Positions 13,441-19,295 of a DNA stretch of 46,406 bases are shown here, piece after piece. This DNA is from Bacteroidales bacterium. Its GTDB lineage: Bacteria; Bacteroidota; Bacteroidia; Bacteroidales; UBA932. The position numbers and the translations under genes are program-made. The stretch is from contig JAQVBQ010000013.1 in assembly GCA_028690215.1 (NCBI GenBank), positions 1-46,406 on the forward strand, written 5' to 3'. The notes under the pieces were generated by a model. It did not search any database. It saw only the letters and a program-made list of their open reading frames with translations, and was not told the origin of the DNA. How positions within the stretch are numbered: position 1 is the stretch's first letter; each line of letters opens with the position of its first letter.

Positions 13441-14118
13441 ATGGAACTCTTGGATTCAATAGTTAATTCCTTATATAAGAATCTAATCGGGAATGATGGA
13501 TGGCTCGTGGTCCTTGACGGACTATGGGTTACTCTTTTAATTTCGGCTCTGGGCCTGCTTTTCGGGACCATAATAGGATCACTTCTTTGCACTATGCGTA
13601 TCTCGCGGATGGGGGCATTAAGAGTTCCCGCAAAGGTTATAATTGCCTTTCTCCGAGGTAGTCCTGTGTTGTTGCTTCTTATGATTTTTTACTATGTTGT
13701 ATTTTCAAACAGCAGAATTGATGCGGTTTACATTGCAATTATAGCATTTGCCCTTAACAGCGGGGCTCATATAGCCGAAATAATGCGTTCTGCATTGTCG
13801 GCTGTTGATAAAAAGCAGATTGAGGCAGCGAGAATGCTTGGACTCTCAAAATTCAAGGCTTTCATTTCAATAACACTGCCACAGGCCGGAAAGATTGCCA
13901 AACCGGTTTATCATAGCGCAACAATCAATCTTATTCAGTGGACATCAGTCGTTGGTTATGTTACTATCACAGACCTCACCCGGACTGTAAACAATATCGG
14001 ATCCAGAACAGGTGACCCGTTTTTTGCCCTCTTCTTAGGAATTCTTATCTATCTGGCTGTATCATATTTGGTTAATATTCTGTTTTCTTTTCATAACAGG
14101 AAAAAGGAGGGTGTATGA
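13441..14118 (+). CDS. Polar amino acid-type ABC transporter permease (HisM/GlnP family)
   Basis: 225 residues with about five membrane helices. 'VLDGLWVTLLISALGLLFGTIIGSLL' is the usual N-terminal helix pair of His/Glu/Gln permeases, 'FLRGSPVLLLLMIFYYVVF' the next, and the EAA loop reads 'EAARMLGLSKFKAFISITLPQA' split over about residues 138-159, which docks the ATPase. There is one permease gene only, so a homodimer is expected. It overlaps the ATPase gene by four bases (ATGA), which indicates translational coupling. Such transporters are less usual in Bacteroidota than TonB systems. Confidence 0.93.
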   Translation: MELLDSIVNSLYKNLIGNDGWLVVLDGLWVTLLISALGLLFGTIIGSLLCTMRISRMGALRVPAKVIIAFLRGSPVLLLLMIFYYVVFSNSRIDAVYIAIIAFALNSGAHIAEIMRSALSAVDKKQIEAARMLGLSKFKAFISITLPQAGKIAKPVYHSATINLIQWTSVVGYVTITDLTRTVNNIGSRTGDPFFALFLGILIYLAVSYLVNILFSFHNRKKEGV

Positions 14119-15206
14119 TCAAGACGGTCAATTTGTGTAAAAATTTTGGTGACTTGATTGTTTTCAAGGATATATACTTAAATGTTCAAAAGGGTGAGTG
14201 TATAGCCGTTATCGGACCTTCAGGAACGGGAAAGAGTGTATTGTTCCGTACATTGACCATGCTTGAGAAACCGGATAGTGGCCAGGTCTTGATCAACGGT
14301 ACAGATATTACTGGAAAGGGTGTCAATATCAATAAAGTGAGAGAGAAGTTCGGTATGGTATATCAGGGTTTTCATCTCTTCTCGCACTTGAATGTTTTGG
14401 ATAATATAACACTGGCTCCCCGAAAGGTTAAAAAGATGAGCAGGCCTGAAGCAGAGAAAAGAGCAATGGAACTGCTCAACATGGTCGGCCTGAGTGATAA
14501 ATCCAAATCCTATCCTCATCAACTTTCAGGTGGTCAGCAGCAAAGGGTTGCCATAGCCCGTTCGCTGGCGATGGATCCTGACATAATCCTGTTTGACGAA
14601 CCTACATCGGCGCTGGATCCGTCAATGACCGGAGAGGTTTTGACAATAATTCGCAAACTGGCCATGAGCGGTCTTACAATGATGATTTCCACCCACGAGA
14701 TGGGATTTGCCCAGGATGTGGCCAGCAGGGTGATTTATATGGACGATAAGGGCATATATGAAGAGGGAACCCCGGATGAGATTTTTATGAATCCACAGAA
14801 GGAGAAGACCAGAATGTTCATCCGCAAACTTAAAGTCTTCACATACTCTATAACTTCGAGAGGATTCGATATGGTCTCAATGAATGTTCAGATAGAGATG
14901 TTCTGTCAGAAGTATAACGTTGAGTCTAAGAAAATCAACCACATACAGCTTATTCTCGAGGAGCTGATTGTTTCTGTAATAGAGAGATATCCAAGTGATT
15001 CACAGTTGAGCATTGAATTCACAATTGAATTCTCAGAGGAGAGGCGAGAAATACAGGTGGCGTTTATTTATAAAGGAGAACTTTTCAATCCGTTTGAAAT
15101 TGCAGAGGGTTCAGACCATCTTGGAATGACATTGATTACCGGTGTTGCAAAAAGCTTTGACCATAAATTTGAAAATGGTCAAAATACCATCAATATTAAT
15201 CTTTAA
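14115..15206 (+). CDS. ABC transporter ATPase (GlnQ/HisP type) with a C-terminal HATPase/RsbW-like extension
   Basis: 363 residues, about 120 more than GlnQ-type ATPases. Residues 1-238 are a complete ABC domain: Walker A GPSGTGKS at 34-41, Q-loop Gln 84, signature LSGGQ at 137-141, Walker B 'IILFDEP' ending near 163, and H-loop His 194. Residues about 240-363 look like an HATPase_c_2 (anti-sigma kinase RsbW/SpoIIAB) fold: a helix 'IQLILEELIVSVIERY' in the place of the N-box, beta strands 'LSIEFTIEF' and 'REIQVAFIYK', then 'DHLGMTLITGVAKSFDH' resembling the G2 region and a final strand 'NTININL'. The N-box Asn is missing, so kinase activity is doubtful; a regulatory or nucleotide-sensing role is my inference. 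The next gene starts 10 bases after the stop. Confidence 0.9.
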   Translation: MIKTVNLCKNFGDLIVFKDIYLNVQKGECIAVIGPSGTGKSVLFRTLTMLEKPDSGQVLINGTDITGKGVNINKVREKFGMVYQGFHLFSHLNVLDNITLAPRKVKKMSRPEAEKRAMELLNMVGLSDKSKSYPHQLSGGQQQRVAIARSLAMDPDIILFDEPTSALDPSMTGEVLTIIRKLAMSGLTMMISTHEMGFAQDVASRVIYMDDKGIYEEGTPDEIFMNPQKEKTRMFIRKLKVFTYSITSRGFDMVSMNVQIEMFCQKYNVESKKINHIQLILEELIVSVIERYPSDSQLSIEFTIEFSEERREIQVAFIYKGELFNPFEIAEGSDHLGMTLITGVAKSFDHKFENGQNTININL

Positions 15207-15216
15207 ATTTTTAAGC

Positions 15217-16044
15217 ATGAAAAACAAACTTCCAATTTTATTAATTGCTGTTTTAGCTCTTGGATTGACCTCCTGCGCATCAAAAGGGGCTAAAATAGAG
15301 ACATTGGCCGACCTTCAGGGAAAAATAATCGGAAATCTATCTTCCGGTATTTCTGACTCTTCAGCAAAAGCTATGATCTCAGTGCTTATCGGCGGAGAAC
15401 CTGCTGAGGTTGTAAGTTACAACAGAGGAATGGATATTCTTGCTGCACTGAAAAGCGGGAAAATAGACGGATATCCATCACATCAATTTGCCGTTGACTA
15501 TTTGCTCAAGAGAGATTCGCAACTGGTTGCCATACCTGTGACTGATGTTCCAATTGAGGGACAGGCTATAATGGCTGTCCGCTCGGAGGATACTGCTTTG
15601 AAGAGTCTGCTGGACAGCGCAATCGTTACTCTTACAGGAAACGGAACTATTGCTGCTATTGAAAAAGAGTGGATTACAGATCTTCCTGCAGAAAACGAAC
15701 CAACTTTTAAAGAGTTACCTGTAATAGAGGGAGCTACAACTTATTATGTTGGAGTTACAGGCGATATGCCACCACTCGATTATGTTGCATCAGACGGTTT
15801 TCCTGCCGGTTTCAATGTGGCTTTGCTCAGTGAGATAGGAAAACTCATTAATGTTAACTTCAAATTCGTCTCTATTGAGACACAGGCACGTTTCACAGCT
15901 TTGGAAAGCAAGAAGATAGATGTTGTATTCTGCCATTTCCAGAGTACAAACACCAGCTATTTCGATGAGCTTAAAAATGAAGGATGGTTGGCAACTCAGC
16001 CTTACTTTATTTATAAAGGAGGATCTTTTATAGTTAATAAGTAA
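15217..16044 (+). CDS. Periplasmic binding lipoprotein with type-3 SBP halves in swapped order
   Basis: 275 residues from ATG 15217, with an SPII signal and lipobox LTSC (Cys 20). Residues about 26-152 correspond to the second half of a family-3 solute-binding protein: 'LADLQGKIIGNLSSG', 'EVVSYNRGMDILAALKSGKIDGY', and the usual C-terminal 'LDSAIVTLTGNGTIAAIEKEW'. Residues about 174-265 correspond to the first half: 'YYVGVTGDMPPLDYVASDGF', 'GFNVALLSEIGKLINVNFKFV', 'ALESKKIDVVFCHFQST'. The order is therefore lobe 2 then lobe 1, as in a circular permutation. The Arg that binds the amino acid carboxylate in lobe 1 of HisJ-type proteins is not seen, so the ligand may be unusual. The TonB receptor gene starts on its last stop-codon base. 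Confidence 0.88.
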   Translation: MKNKLPILLIAVLALGLTSCASKGAKIETLADLQGKIIGNLSSGISDSSAKAMISVLIGGEPAEVVSYNRGMDILAALKSGKIDGYPSHQFAVDYLLKRDSQLVAIPVTDVPIEGQAIMAVRSEDTALKSLLDSAIVTLTGNGTIAAIEKEWITDLPAENEPTFKELPVIEGATTYYVGVTGDMPPLDYVASDGFPAGFNVALLSEIGKLINVNFKFVSIETQARFTALESKKIDVVFCHFQSTNTSYFDELKNEGWLATQPYFIYKGGSFIVNK

Positions 16045-19000
16045 TGCGTAATCTCTTTTCGGTAATATTTATATTACTGATATTCTGCAATACTGCCTAT
16101 AGCCAGGGAGCCACAACCGGTACGCTTGAAGGAAAGGTGCTGGATGAGGCTTCCGGGCCTGTAGCAGGTGCTACGGTCATTGCCGTACATATTCCCTCCG
16201 GTACAAAGTACGGAGCAGTTTCAAGAACTGACGGTTCATTCTCGTTTCCAGGCATGAGGGTCGGCGGCCCTTATGAGGTTTCTGTAAGTTATATGGGTTA
16301 CGAGAAGGCGGTGTCAGGCGGGATATACATTACATTAGGTAATATTACCAGACAAGATTTTAAATTAGGAGAGCAATCTACACTTCTTGCTCCTAAAGTC
16401 ATATGGGGCAACAGAACAGGAGGAGCTACAGCAATAAATAAAGAGGAGATAGTCGCACTTCCGACTATTTCAAGACTTATTACAGATTTTACAAGGTTGG
16501 TTCCTCAATCAAGAGGAACTTTCTTTACCGGCCAGGATAACAGGATGAATGCCCTGACAGTTGACGGTTCAATGTTCAACAACTCCTTTGGAATTGCCGG
16601 CATGCCGGGAGAGAGAACAGGAGTAGCTCCAATCTCCCTTGAAGCTATAGAACAGGTTGGTGTCTCAATTGCTGCCTATGATGTGAGACAATCCAACTAT
16701 ACTGGGGCGGCTATTAATATGGTGACAAAAAGTGGAACAAACGAGTTCCGGTCATCAGCTTATTACAGCCTCAGGAACGATGCAATGGTGGGCAAAAAGG
16801 CTGCAGATGCAACCTTTAACACAGGAGCCTTCCGATTTAACATGGGAGGAGCAACTGTATCCGGCCCCTTGATTAAAGACAAACTCTTCTACTTTGTAGG
16901 ATTAGAGGTGGAGAAATATATAAGACCGGCAACTCTTTTTGTAGCAAATGACGGGTCACAGAATGCCGGCGGGAACATAACCAGAGTCCTCAGGCAAGAT
17001 CTCGATCAGCTGAAAGGTTACCTGAAAGAGAACTTTGGATACGAAACAGGAGGTTATGAAGGTTATGACTTTACTACAAGTGCTGTGAGGCTTATTGCCA
17101 AACTCGACTACAACCTAGATGAGAGAAATAAATTCAGTATCCGCTATAACCACCTGAACTCATCCTCAGACCAGTTTATTGCAAATTCGGACGCTTTGGG
17201 CTACGGATACCGCAGAGGTACTATCAGCTCCCTGAATTTTCAGAATTCAAACTATTCATTGGTAGAAAATATAAGATCTCTTATTGCGGAGTGGAACAGC
17301 ACCCTAAGCGACAAATTGGTCAACAATATGTTTGTCGGATACAGACACCACGACGAGAGCCGGAAAAACCCGGCCATTCTTTTCCCGATGGTAGATATCC
17401 TAAAAGATGGGGTAACCTATACAACATTCGGGACAGAGCCGTTTTCTCCGTACAATGGCCTAAAATACGGCACATTTCAGTTACAGGACAACCTTACCCT
17501 CTTTTTGAAAAAACACACTTTGCTGGCGGGCTTTAACCTGGAGAGGTTCTCTTCAAGTGACAGCTTTTTCCCGGGAGCACAAAGCGTATATGTATATAAC
17601 TCGCTTGAGGATTTTTATTCTGATGCAAATGGTTATCTGTCAAATCCAGACAGGACAACCTCAAACGTAAATTTAAAAAGGTTCCAGTACCAATATTCAA
17701 ACATACCTGGAGTTGAGAAACCGGTACAGGAACTGAAAGTTTTATATGCAGGGTTTTATTTACAGGATAAATGGAGCATCACACCCGCATTGAAGCTGAC
17801 TTTTGGGCTGAGAATGGATATTCCGTTTTTCGGTGATACAGGTTTCAGAAACTCTGAAGTTGAGCAATTGACCTTCCTGGATGAAGCTGGAAAAAGCGAA
17901 AAATATTCGACAGATAAGCTTCCGGACTCAAATCCGCTCTTCTCGCCAAGACTTGGTGTGGATTGGGATCTTTTTGGTGACGGATCACTTATGCTTCGTG
18001 GGGGTTCAGGGATTTTCACATGCCAGCCGCCATATGTTATAATATCAAATCAGATTGGCAACAACGGCATACTTACAGGCTTTGAATGGTTGGACGGATA
18101 TCCTGCTTCACCGCTCTACTCCCGCCCGTTTAATCCACAAGTGGATAGATATAAACCTGCAAATGTAATAGGACAGCCTGCTTTCAGATTCAGCCTGGCC
18201 CTTACAGATCCGGGATTCCGTTTTCCTCAGATCTGGAGAAGCAATATAGCCTCCAACTATATTTTCCCTTCAGGATTTGTGGGGAATTTTGAATTCATCT
18301 ACGACAAGGATATCAATGGGATAACAAATATCAACGCTAACCTTCCGGTACCGACAGGCAGCTATACCGGTGCCGATGACAGGCTGCGCTGGACACAGGG
18401 GAGTAGGCTGAATTCAAAAATTTCAAATGCCGTAGTCCTGAAGAATCAGAACGAGGGTTATTCATGGAATATTGCAGCCTCCCTGGAGAAAAGGATGGCA
18501 GACCTTCTATTCGCAAAGATCGGCTACTCCTACGGAGAGACAAGGAATCTGATGGATGTGGGAACAGCTGCATACAGCACATGGAGCTACAATCCACAGG
18601 CTTCCGACCCTAACAATCCCAAGCCGGGGCTCTCTATGTATTCGCCCGGTCACAGAATTTTTGGAGCACTCTCTGCAAATGCCAATTTTTTCAATTTCGG
18701 ACAGACAACCTTCTCTCTGTTCTTTGACTCGTACAGTGCAGGAAGACAGAGCTATATTGTGGCAGGAGACCTGAATGGTGACGGAGCAAACAGCAATGAC
18801 CTCATTTATGTTCCAAATAACAGGTCTGAGATGAATTTTGCAGCATATACAACAGGCGGCAAAACCTTCACTGCAGAGCAGCAGGAGATAGCCTGGGATA
18901 AATACATCAGCAAGGATAAACATCTCAGTAAACGCAGGGGTATGTATGCAGAGAGAAACGGAGTGGTTTTGCCGATGGTGTCACGCCTTGATTTCAGCCT

Positions 19001-19295
19001 CTCCCAGCAAGTATTCTTCAGACTGGCCGGTAAAGAGAACAGATTTGCCGTAAGACTCGATGTCTTGAATCTGACAAACCTGATTAACCGAAACTGGGGA
19101 GTGAGCAAGACAATTATCACAACACAGCCTCTGGTTTTAGTCGGAACGGTTGCAGAGGGCTCGGGTGTCAAACCTCAGTACAAACTGAGGACAATCAATG
19201 ACGAGCTTATACAAGAGCCCTATATGACAACCGCAACCATCAATGATGTCTTCCGGCTTCAGCTCTCTATCAGATGGGACTTCGGCTCAAGATAG
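16044..19295 (+). CDS. Oar-like TonB-dependent outer membrane receptor
   Basis: 1083 residues, with the ATG sharing its A with the TAA of the binding-protein gene, so translation is probably coupled. After an SPI signal ('NTAYSQ'), residues about 25-110 form a carboxypeptidase-regulatory-like domain ('TGTLEGKVLDEASGPVAGAT'), then a plug ('INKEEIVALPTISRLITDFTRLVP', 'ALTVDGSMFNNSFG') and a long barrel ending in 'LQLSIRWDFGSR'. This matches Oar-type receptors, which are distinct from SusC. Being the last gene of an ABC operon suggests it takes the transporter's substrate across the outer membrane. The terminal sequence 'DFGSR' is not the usual aromatic end, though Phe is close by. Confidence 0.92.
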   Translation: MRNLFSVIFILLIFCNTAYSQGATTGTLEGKVLDEASGPVAGATVIAVHIPSGTKYGAVSRTDGSFSFPGMRVGGPYEVSVSYMGYEKAVSGGIYITLGNITRQDFKLGEQSTLLAPKVIWGNRTGGATAINKEEIVALPTISRLITDFTRLVPQSRGTFFTGQDNRMNALTVDGSMFNNSFGIAGMPGERTGVAPISLEAIEQVGVSIAAYDVRQSNYTGAAINMVTKSGTNEFRSSAYYSLRNDAMVGKKAADATFNTGAFRFNMGGATVSGPLIKDKLFYFVGLEVEKYIRPATLFVANDGSQNAGGNITRVLRQDLDQLKGYLKENFGYETGGYEGYDFTTSAVRLIAKLDYNLDERNKFSIRYNHLNSSSDQFIANSDALGYGYRRGTISSLNFQNSNYSLVENIRSLIAEWNSTLSDKLVNNMFVGYRHHDESRKNPAILFPMVDILKDGVTYTTFGTEPFSPYNGLKYGTFQLQDNLTLFLKKHTLLAGFNLERFSSSDSFFPGAQSVYVYNSLEDFYSDANGYLSNPDRTTSNVNLKRFQYQYSNIPGVEKPVQELKVLYAGFYLQDKWSITPALKLTFGLRMDIPFFGDTGFRNSEVEQLTFLDEAGKSEKYSTDKLPDSNPLFSPRLGVDWDLFGDGSLMLRGGSGIFTCQPPYVIISNQIGNNGILTGFEWLDGYPASPLYSRPFNPQVDRYKPANVIGQPAFRFSLALTDPGFRFPQIWRSNIASNYIFPSGFVGNFEFIYDKDINGITNINANLPVPTGSYTGADDRLRWTQGSRLNSKISNAVVLKNQNEGYSWNIAASLEKRMADLLFAKIGYSYGETRNLMDVGTAAYSTWSYNPQASDPNNPKPGLSMYSPGHRIFGALSANANFFNFGQTTFSLFFDSYSAGRQSYIVAGDLNGDGANSNDLIYVPNNRSEMNFAAYTTGGKTFTAEQQEIAWDKYISKDKHLSKRRGMYAERNGVVLPMVSRLDFSLSQQVFFRLAGKENRFAVRLDVLNLTNLINRNWGVSKTIITTQPLVLVGTVAEGSGVKPQYKLRTINDELIQEPYMTTATINDVFRLQLSIRWDFGSR

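Follow-up and report, generated by a model that had tools for sequence, protein, structure and literature searches.

Does a solute-binding protein (SBP) whose lobes occur in the reverse of the usual order represent a complete, circularly permuted protein, or is it the remnant of a former tandem pair? The question is raised by an open reading frame (ORF) located at positions 15217–16044 of the window, i.e., the whole 46,406-nt stretch of Bacteroidales DNA that was analysed. We consider it highly probable that this gene encodes a complete solute-binding lipoprotein of a type-3 ABC importer, which is a natural circular permutant of a kind shared by a whole family, with a probably non-standard ligand. 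Lobe order, completeness, conservation and operon structure are taken from the sequence; fold, ligand binding, transport and route of origin are deduced.

Lobe order of the solute-binding protein

The ORF, which a sequence-only reading had delimited correctly, encodes a lipoprotein of 275 residues plus the stop codon. It is encoded together with a HisM/GlnP-type permease and a GlnQ-type ATPase. The first gene of the operon (13441–14118, + strand) specifies a permease of the polar amino acid type, matching both PF00528 and TIGR01726 above cut-offs. It is followed by an ABC ATPase gene (14115–15206, +) featuring an EhuA/GlnQ-like core, which passes the PF00005 cut-off and scores below the NCBIfam cut-offs for ehuA (292 bits) and GlnQ (280 bits). 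The next gene downstream (16044–19295, +) encodes an outer-membrane beta-barrel protein (PF25183 and PF13620), and its start codon begins on the last base of the SBP stop codon.

The SBP is composed of four segments, all on the + strand. The lipoprotein signal peptide (15217–15276; MKNKLPILLIAVLALGLTSC) ends in the lipidation residue Cys20, which is invariant in 11 of 11 aligned permuted proteins. Residues 22–155 (15280–15681) comprise lobe II and then the C-terminal tail of lobe I, the start of which is placed by estimate at about residue 122; this segment corresponds to positions 117–250 of the TIGR01096 profile and to residues 114–250 of the solved SBP 3hv1 (PDB). Residues 156–175 (15682–15741) form a linker between what were the C and N termini. 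The remainder, residues 176–275 (15742–16041), is the N-terminal portion of lobe I, which extends to the hinge crossover.

Two stretches of the protein match TIGR01096, in reversed order, and the better one pairs residues 22–153 with profile positions 117–250 of 250. The best PF00497 stretch pairs residues 178–263 with positions 3–82 of 132 and scores 67.4 bits against a curated cut-off of 26.4, which makes the protein a family 3 SBP. When the second half (residues 176–275) was scanned by itself, the match covered positions 3–90. We also rotated the protein in silico by joining residues 173–275 to residues 21–165. The rotated copy matches TIGR01096 in a single stretch (28–250 of 250) at 83.5 bits, compared with 75.0 bits in two pieces for the natural sequence, and PF00497 in a single stretch (3–131 of 132) at 75.8 bits, compared with 67.4. 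It is likewise colinear with 3hv1 over residues 25–249, the score rising from 42 to 52.1 bits. A control in which each half had been shuffled gave no match to the NCBIfam models, the only ones used for it, at 0.01.

Instead of the canonical order (lobe I, lobe II, lobe I tail), the chain presents lobe II, the lobe I tail and then lobe I. The swap that had been suspected is thus borne out by both profiles, the stretches of which are reversed in the natural protein and become colinear, with higher scores, after rotation. The assignment of the first block to lobe II needs a correction: it is mostly right, but the motif LTGNGTIAAIEKEW, which had been counted with lobe II, belongs to the lobe I C-terminal tail, a segment that comes after lobe II in canonical proteins too. 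The rotated copy covers almost the entire length of both models: lobes I and II are both present in full, and the protein is a complete permutant. The break falls at the hinge crossover, and the linker connects the former termini. Domain annotation yields only split PF00497 matches in permuted proteins of this kind, which calls for caution.

In the predicted arrangement, the chain would start at the hinge, build lobe II and cross back to form the lobe I tail; the short linker would then bridge the old termini, and the rest of lobe I would follow, the chain ending at the hinge. The fold would be that of an ordinary Venus flytrap in which the hinge, and not lobe I, bears both the lipid anchor and the C terminus.

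The AlphaFold model of the SBP, built from a shallow input of six close sequences, has a mean pLDDT of 50.9; values of 70–82 occur only in parts of residues 116–260, and lobe II is unresolved. Searched with this weak model, Foldseek returned no PDB match at E ≤ 0.001, and the 50 matches listed are binding proteins at a TM score of about 0.3, OpuAC being among the first. Two scans of viral contigs for relatives that could deepen the alignment found none. An arrangement in which lobe II of one chain closes on lobe I of another, in a domain-swapped oligomer, is compatible with the sequence and with a model this weak. We regard it as improbable. The linker is short and conserved in length (about 14 residues), as would be required to connect the former termini within one chain, although this is no more than suggestive.

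Conservation and distribution of the permuted proteins

A decaying leftover would have the same lobe order. The middle of a canonical tandem SBP pair runs from lobe II to lobe I, and both the window SBP and a profile of 11 permuted proteins (A2) are colinear across the SBD1–SBD2 junction of GlnPQ (6h30). If the gene were such a middle portion, with the outer halves and the binding function lost, it should not persist as it does. The full-length 275-residue form is found in 8 of 25 genomes of the genus, including the window's own, and the seven other proteins are 76–80% identical to it; any SBP match occurs in 17 of the 99 genomes searched, again counting the window's own. In nine of ten orthologue comparisons dN/dS is 0.03–0.10, with dS near saturation in most of them and saturated in the tenth. 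For two closely related pairs, in which synonymous divergence is moderate, the ratios are 0.027 and 0.047. The orthologues are thus under purifying selection. Two further families of the order, and Selenomonas, also have the gene next to those for a permease and an ATPase, and stand-alone permuted SBPs are present in several families. Decay is therefore highly improbable, and a complete, conserved permutant remains the preferred reading over a tandem-pair middle, as one of the two options left by the sequence-only reading.

A frameshift or a missing segment was rejected as well. If the SBP frame is extended upstream to 15142, it gains 25 residues but no lobe I; downstream, the next gene already begins within the stop codon, and full-length orthologues exist in the genus. 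None of the homologues restores the usual order: in addition to the genus members, the SBPs of two other genomes of the order (45–46% identity) have the same lobe order as the window protein. Window-type genes accompanied by a permease and an ATPase with a C-terminal tail were identified in two other families of the order (L066 and L067; the L067 permease frame is missing from the gene listing of the locus and was placed by a fused-query search described below). The subfamily is sparse, as its profile matched 4 of 393 genomes of the order at 1e-30, the window's own included. The fourth match (L121) lies in a 3.8-kb stretch whose long frames, inspected by eye, include neither permease nor ATPase. 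In L066 (7125–8036) and L067 (7860–10229), the permuted SBP gene is followed by a TonB-dependent receptor gene, the place held in the window by a different outer-membrane barrel.

Permutation is not confined to the window, as colinear permuted relatives exist in the order and in the phylum. A fused protein (L029) consisting of a signal, lobe II, lobe I and a permease was used as a query at 1e-20 and matched 24 of 393 genomes of the order, three of them (the window's own, G157 and G296) by the permease part only. At 1e-25, the A2 profile had hits in 43 of the 395 genomes searched in the phylum; 38 of the 43 belong to family f136, and the matches listed have the permuted order (lobe II to lobe I) throughout, except for two partial rows. 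After deduplication, the complete permuted ORFs collected comprise 43 stand-alone II-I proteins and three types of fusion to a permease domain (TMD): 8 II-I-TMD, 11 (II-I)2-TMD and 4 (II-I)3-TMD. This set of 66 ORFs is not a census, since most of the sequences were obtained by searching with permuted queries. It covers complete ORFs, not truncated ones or single halves, and L071 is counted apart. A lipobox-like Cys precedes lobe II by 5–16 residues in 64 of the 66; of the two exceptions, L037 carries none and the L048 frame starts inside lobe II. Permutation is thus a family trait in Bacteroidota, found in stand-alone proteins and in fusions that carry one to three II-I units before the permease, almost always preceded by a lipoprotein signal.

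The same procedure called five other Bacteroidota fusions, found with TIGR01096, canonical (I-II-TMD), and none of the five has a lipobox. Canonical fusions of this type therefore coexist with permuted forms in one phylum, and the two provide natural pairs for testing what changes when the termini and the membrane tether are relocated to the hinge. Five substrate-binding domains (SBDs) in four proteins from elsewhere (two in Enterococcus faecalis, one each in Monoglobus, Azospirillum and Enterobacter) are all I-II, with one weak extra half-match in Monoglobus.

Several single loci depart from these layouts. A 984-residue chain encoded by L071 (2695–5649, − strand) begins with a permease, continues with lobe II and lobe I enclosed between two membrane helices, and ends with a tailed ATPase. 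The permuted stand-alone SBPs of family f55 adjoin proteins of about 600 residues (L069:4112–5905, L070:6660–8438 and L073:3115–4959), of which those of L069 and L070 have no Pfam match at 0.05, and no permease of the polar amino acid type was called within the 11–13 kb fetched around f55 SBPs. At a contig edge, the window's own genome carries a second transporter of this sort (L068; G000:C76:3–1654), consisting of a tailed ATPase and part of a permease that resembles the fused type.

Permuted proteins also reach beyond the phylum. The L029 query matched 1,947 plasmid records, and the one place covering at least 80% of the query is plasmid pSRC1 of Selenomonas ruminantium (NC_017078; Bacillota); the other records were inspected selectively and not one by one. 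The pSRC1 protein, SELR_RS16275, is a stand-alone II-I SBP sharing 42% identity with the window SBP over lobe I and 28% overall. It adjoins a permease and an ATPase, the tail of which is 27.6% identical to that of the window ATPase.

Unit borders and origin of the permutation

The gap between the models of lobe II and lobe I measures 13.9 ± 1.2 residues in 108 permuted units, and the I-to-II junctions of arrays measure 8.4 ± 2.6 residues (n = 32). Canonical hinges (n = 9, from the five fusions and four other proteins) measure 0.4 ± 1.3 residues. Many of these rows are related, and the samples are not independent. A quick tree was built from 98 units rotated to a common order, leaving out most of the near-identical f136 stand-alone rows and genus repeats. 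Of its 25 stand-alone rows, ten fall together with 12 array units, each of which is the first in its array (support 100), a pattern that fits genes split at the borders of permuted units. The other 15 lie elsewhere, 11 being of the window type and four from f55. The window type forms an 11-row group (support 100) that includes Selenomonas, on a long branch.

The repeating unit of the arrays is probably II-I. Counting against this, the I-II stretch in the middle of arrays aligns without a break to the canonical model as well (e.g., 24–250, 152.5 bits). We considered that arrays might be canonical SBDs flanked by stray outer halves; linker lengths and the grouping of stand-alone forms with first units disfavour this, although it may hold for some arrays. 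The permutation may have arisen once or more than once: the 98-row tree requires two changes of state, one (support 78) when four rows are removed (three from L014, one from L071), and again two when the canonical L116 is removed as well.

The simplest origin would be a tandem SBP array that lost its outer halves. Such a loss from a tandem pair is a likely account of how the permutant arose, and the tandem pair is plausible as a route to it, not as a competing description of its present state. The window SBP has its permutation in common with the lipoprotein-(II-I)n-permease fusions and the stand-alone SBPs of Bacteroidota.

Family 3 SBPs (PF00497), which we take to have a type II fold, include HisJ, ArgT, GlnH, ArtJ and the SBD1 and SBD2 domains of GlnPQ. 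The window SBP shares with them both lobes after rotation and a matching permease and ATPase, but they are I-II, whereas it is II-I, lacks the carboxylate-binding Arg and the lobe II Asp, and would be anchored at the hinge. The glycine betaine-binding OpuAC and ProX proteins, presumably also type II folds, belong to a different family (PF04069); its model did not list the natural window sequence at E ≤ 1 and gave the rotated copy 17.5 bits against a cut-off of 21.2. The SBD arrays of E. faecalis WP_002361277 (L115) are attached to the same permease type as those of Bacteroidota, but are arranged as I-II-I-II-TMD with an untailed ATPase, in contrast to II-I-II-I-TMD with a tailed one.

Natural permutation of binding proteins has been described in other families. 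The CPSARST paper (PMC2395249) reports it for OpuAC and ProX; permutation terms were not found in an OpuA paper (PMC2861598). Treponema pallidum TpMglB-2 (Tp0684) is described as a natural circularly permuted, lipid-anchored SBP, for which a 'Type Ic/Cluster Bc' subclass was proposed (PMC4990184). It differs from the family 3 window SBP in its type I sugar-binding fold, in which strands of the N lobe have been transferred to the C terminus, and in its cut point (PMC4990184). No sugar-binding family model listed the window SBP at E ≤ 1. Titles and abstracts retrieved by searches of the open-access literature, a coverage outside which fall most subscription journals and all preprints, yielded no report of a permuted family 3 SBP and none of an ABC ATPase with an RsbW-like tail. 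In the present case a whole group within family 3, a common amino-acid SBP family, is permuted, in stand-alone, fused and array forms.

Ligand pocket and ATPase tail

The sequence-only reading had also reported no carboxylate-binding Arg in lobe I, and it is indeed absent: none of the 11 window-type rows has an Arg in the column, whereas it is present in all 77 of the other permuted units and in all 10 of the canonical ones. At the lobe II column, Asp is found in 0 of 11 window-type rows, 52 of 77 other permuted units and 8 of 10 canonical units. We assume, from HisJ, that the Arg binds the carboxylate and the Asp the amine of the ligand. The wider permuted family looks like a group of amino-acid binders, a third of which vary at the Asp, and the window subfamily seems to have changed its pocket. 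Since the Arg is absent from this subfamily, the ligand may be other than a standard amino acid, and with the canonical ligand residues lost, the SBP may no longer serve the transport of amino acids. Its probable ligand is a small polar compound that is not one of the standard L-amino acids, which is the least certain part of our explanation. Nine of the 11 window-type rows have a Lys at or near the Arg column, where an insertion makes the alignment unsure; this Lys may replace the Arg, with a carboxylate still bound, in which case our guess at the ligand would be wrong.

The ATPase of the window carries a C-terminal tail (14820–15203, +), a degenerate SpoIIAB/RsbW-like domain. AlphaFold predicts it with a pLDDT of 86.3, and the best solved matches in Foldseek are UsfX, SpoIIAB and RsbW (8ih8, 7.7e-8, ranking first; 1tid, 1e-7); the HATPase_c_2 match (2.4e-4) is below the cut-off. 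The Asn of what we take to be the N-box is absent in six of six aligned tails and present in the intact RsbW of a relative. In a first set, 32 complete ATPases of permuted-SBP loci have 111–135 residues after the core; the SBD of one locus (L054) lies off the contig, and the set excludes truncated frames, L055 with its interrupted core match, and an ABC ATPase of L069 that is unrelated. Seven longer stretches (six from f136 or the like, one from f135) add six complete ATPases, all with tails of 121–123 residues matching that of the window or of L029, and the seventh holds no complete ATPase. The tail is thus present in 38 of 38 complete ATPases of permuted-SBP loci. The ATPases partnering canonical SBDs have 1–25 residues after the core in nine of nine cases, and none has an RsbW-like tail.

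Genes for partner-switching proteins lie close to some of these transporters. In four genomes of the genus (L023, L025, L026, which is the same as L074, and L027; the upstream side of L024 is outside the sequence covered), a cassette of SpoIIE, RsbW and STAS genes immediately precedes the permease-ATPase-SBP operon, and a STAS gene is downstream of it in two more (L034 and L035). In L029, the fused transporter has an RsbW homologue as its neighbour. The 46-kb window itself yielded no partner-switch gene.

The tail, co-occurring with permuted SBPs, suggests a link between these importers and partner-switching regulation. The SBP could even be a sensor that signals its ligand, by way of the transporter, to the RsbW-like tail and to a partner-switching module, transport being a secondary role. 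The constant presence of the tail and the SpoIIE-RsbW-STAS genes upstream of four operons speak for this, but the window permease and ATPase score above Pfam cut-offs as members of their families, and no partner-switch genes were found in the window, so that we find a sensor rather unlikely and favour an importer subunit. More tentatively, one might imagine a common clade of Bacteroidota ABC importers that unites permuted SBDs, anchored by their hinge through a lipid or through membrane helices, with a catalytically dead anti-sigma-factor ATPase tail docking STAS proteins, and that couples nutrient binding to partner-switching signalling; we hold this possible but doubtful. If STAS proteins did dock there, the switch would gate transport, or the transporter would report ligand occupancy to the switch. 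In L034 (11127–13250), downstream of the operon, a STAS domain is joined to a kinase-like TCAD9 protein.
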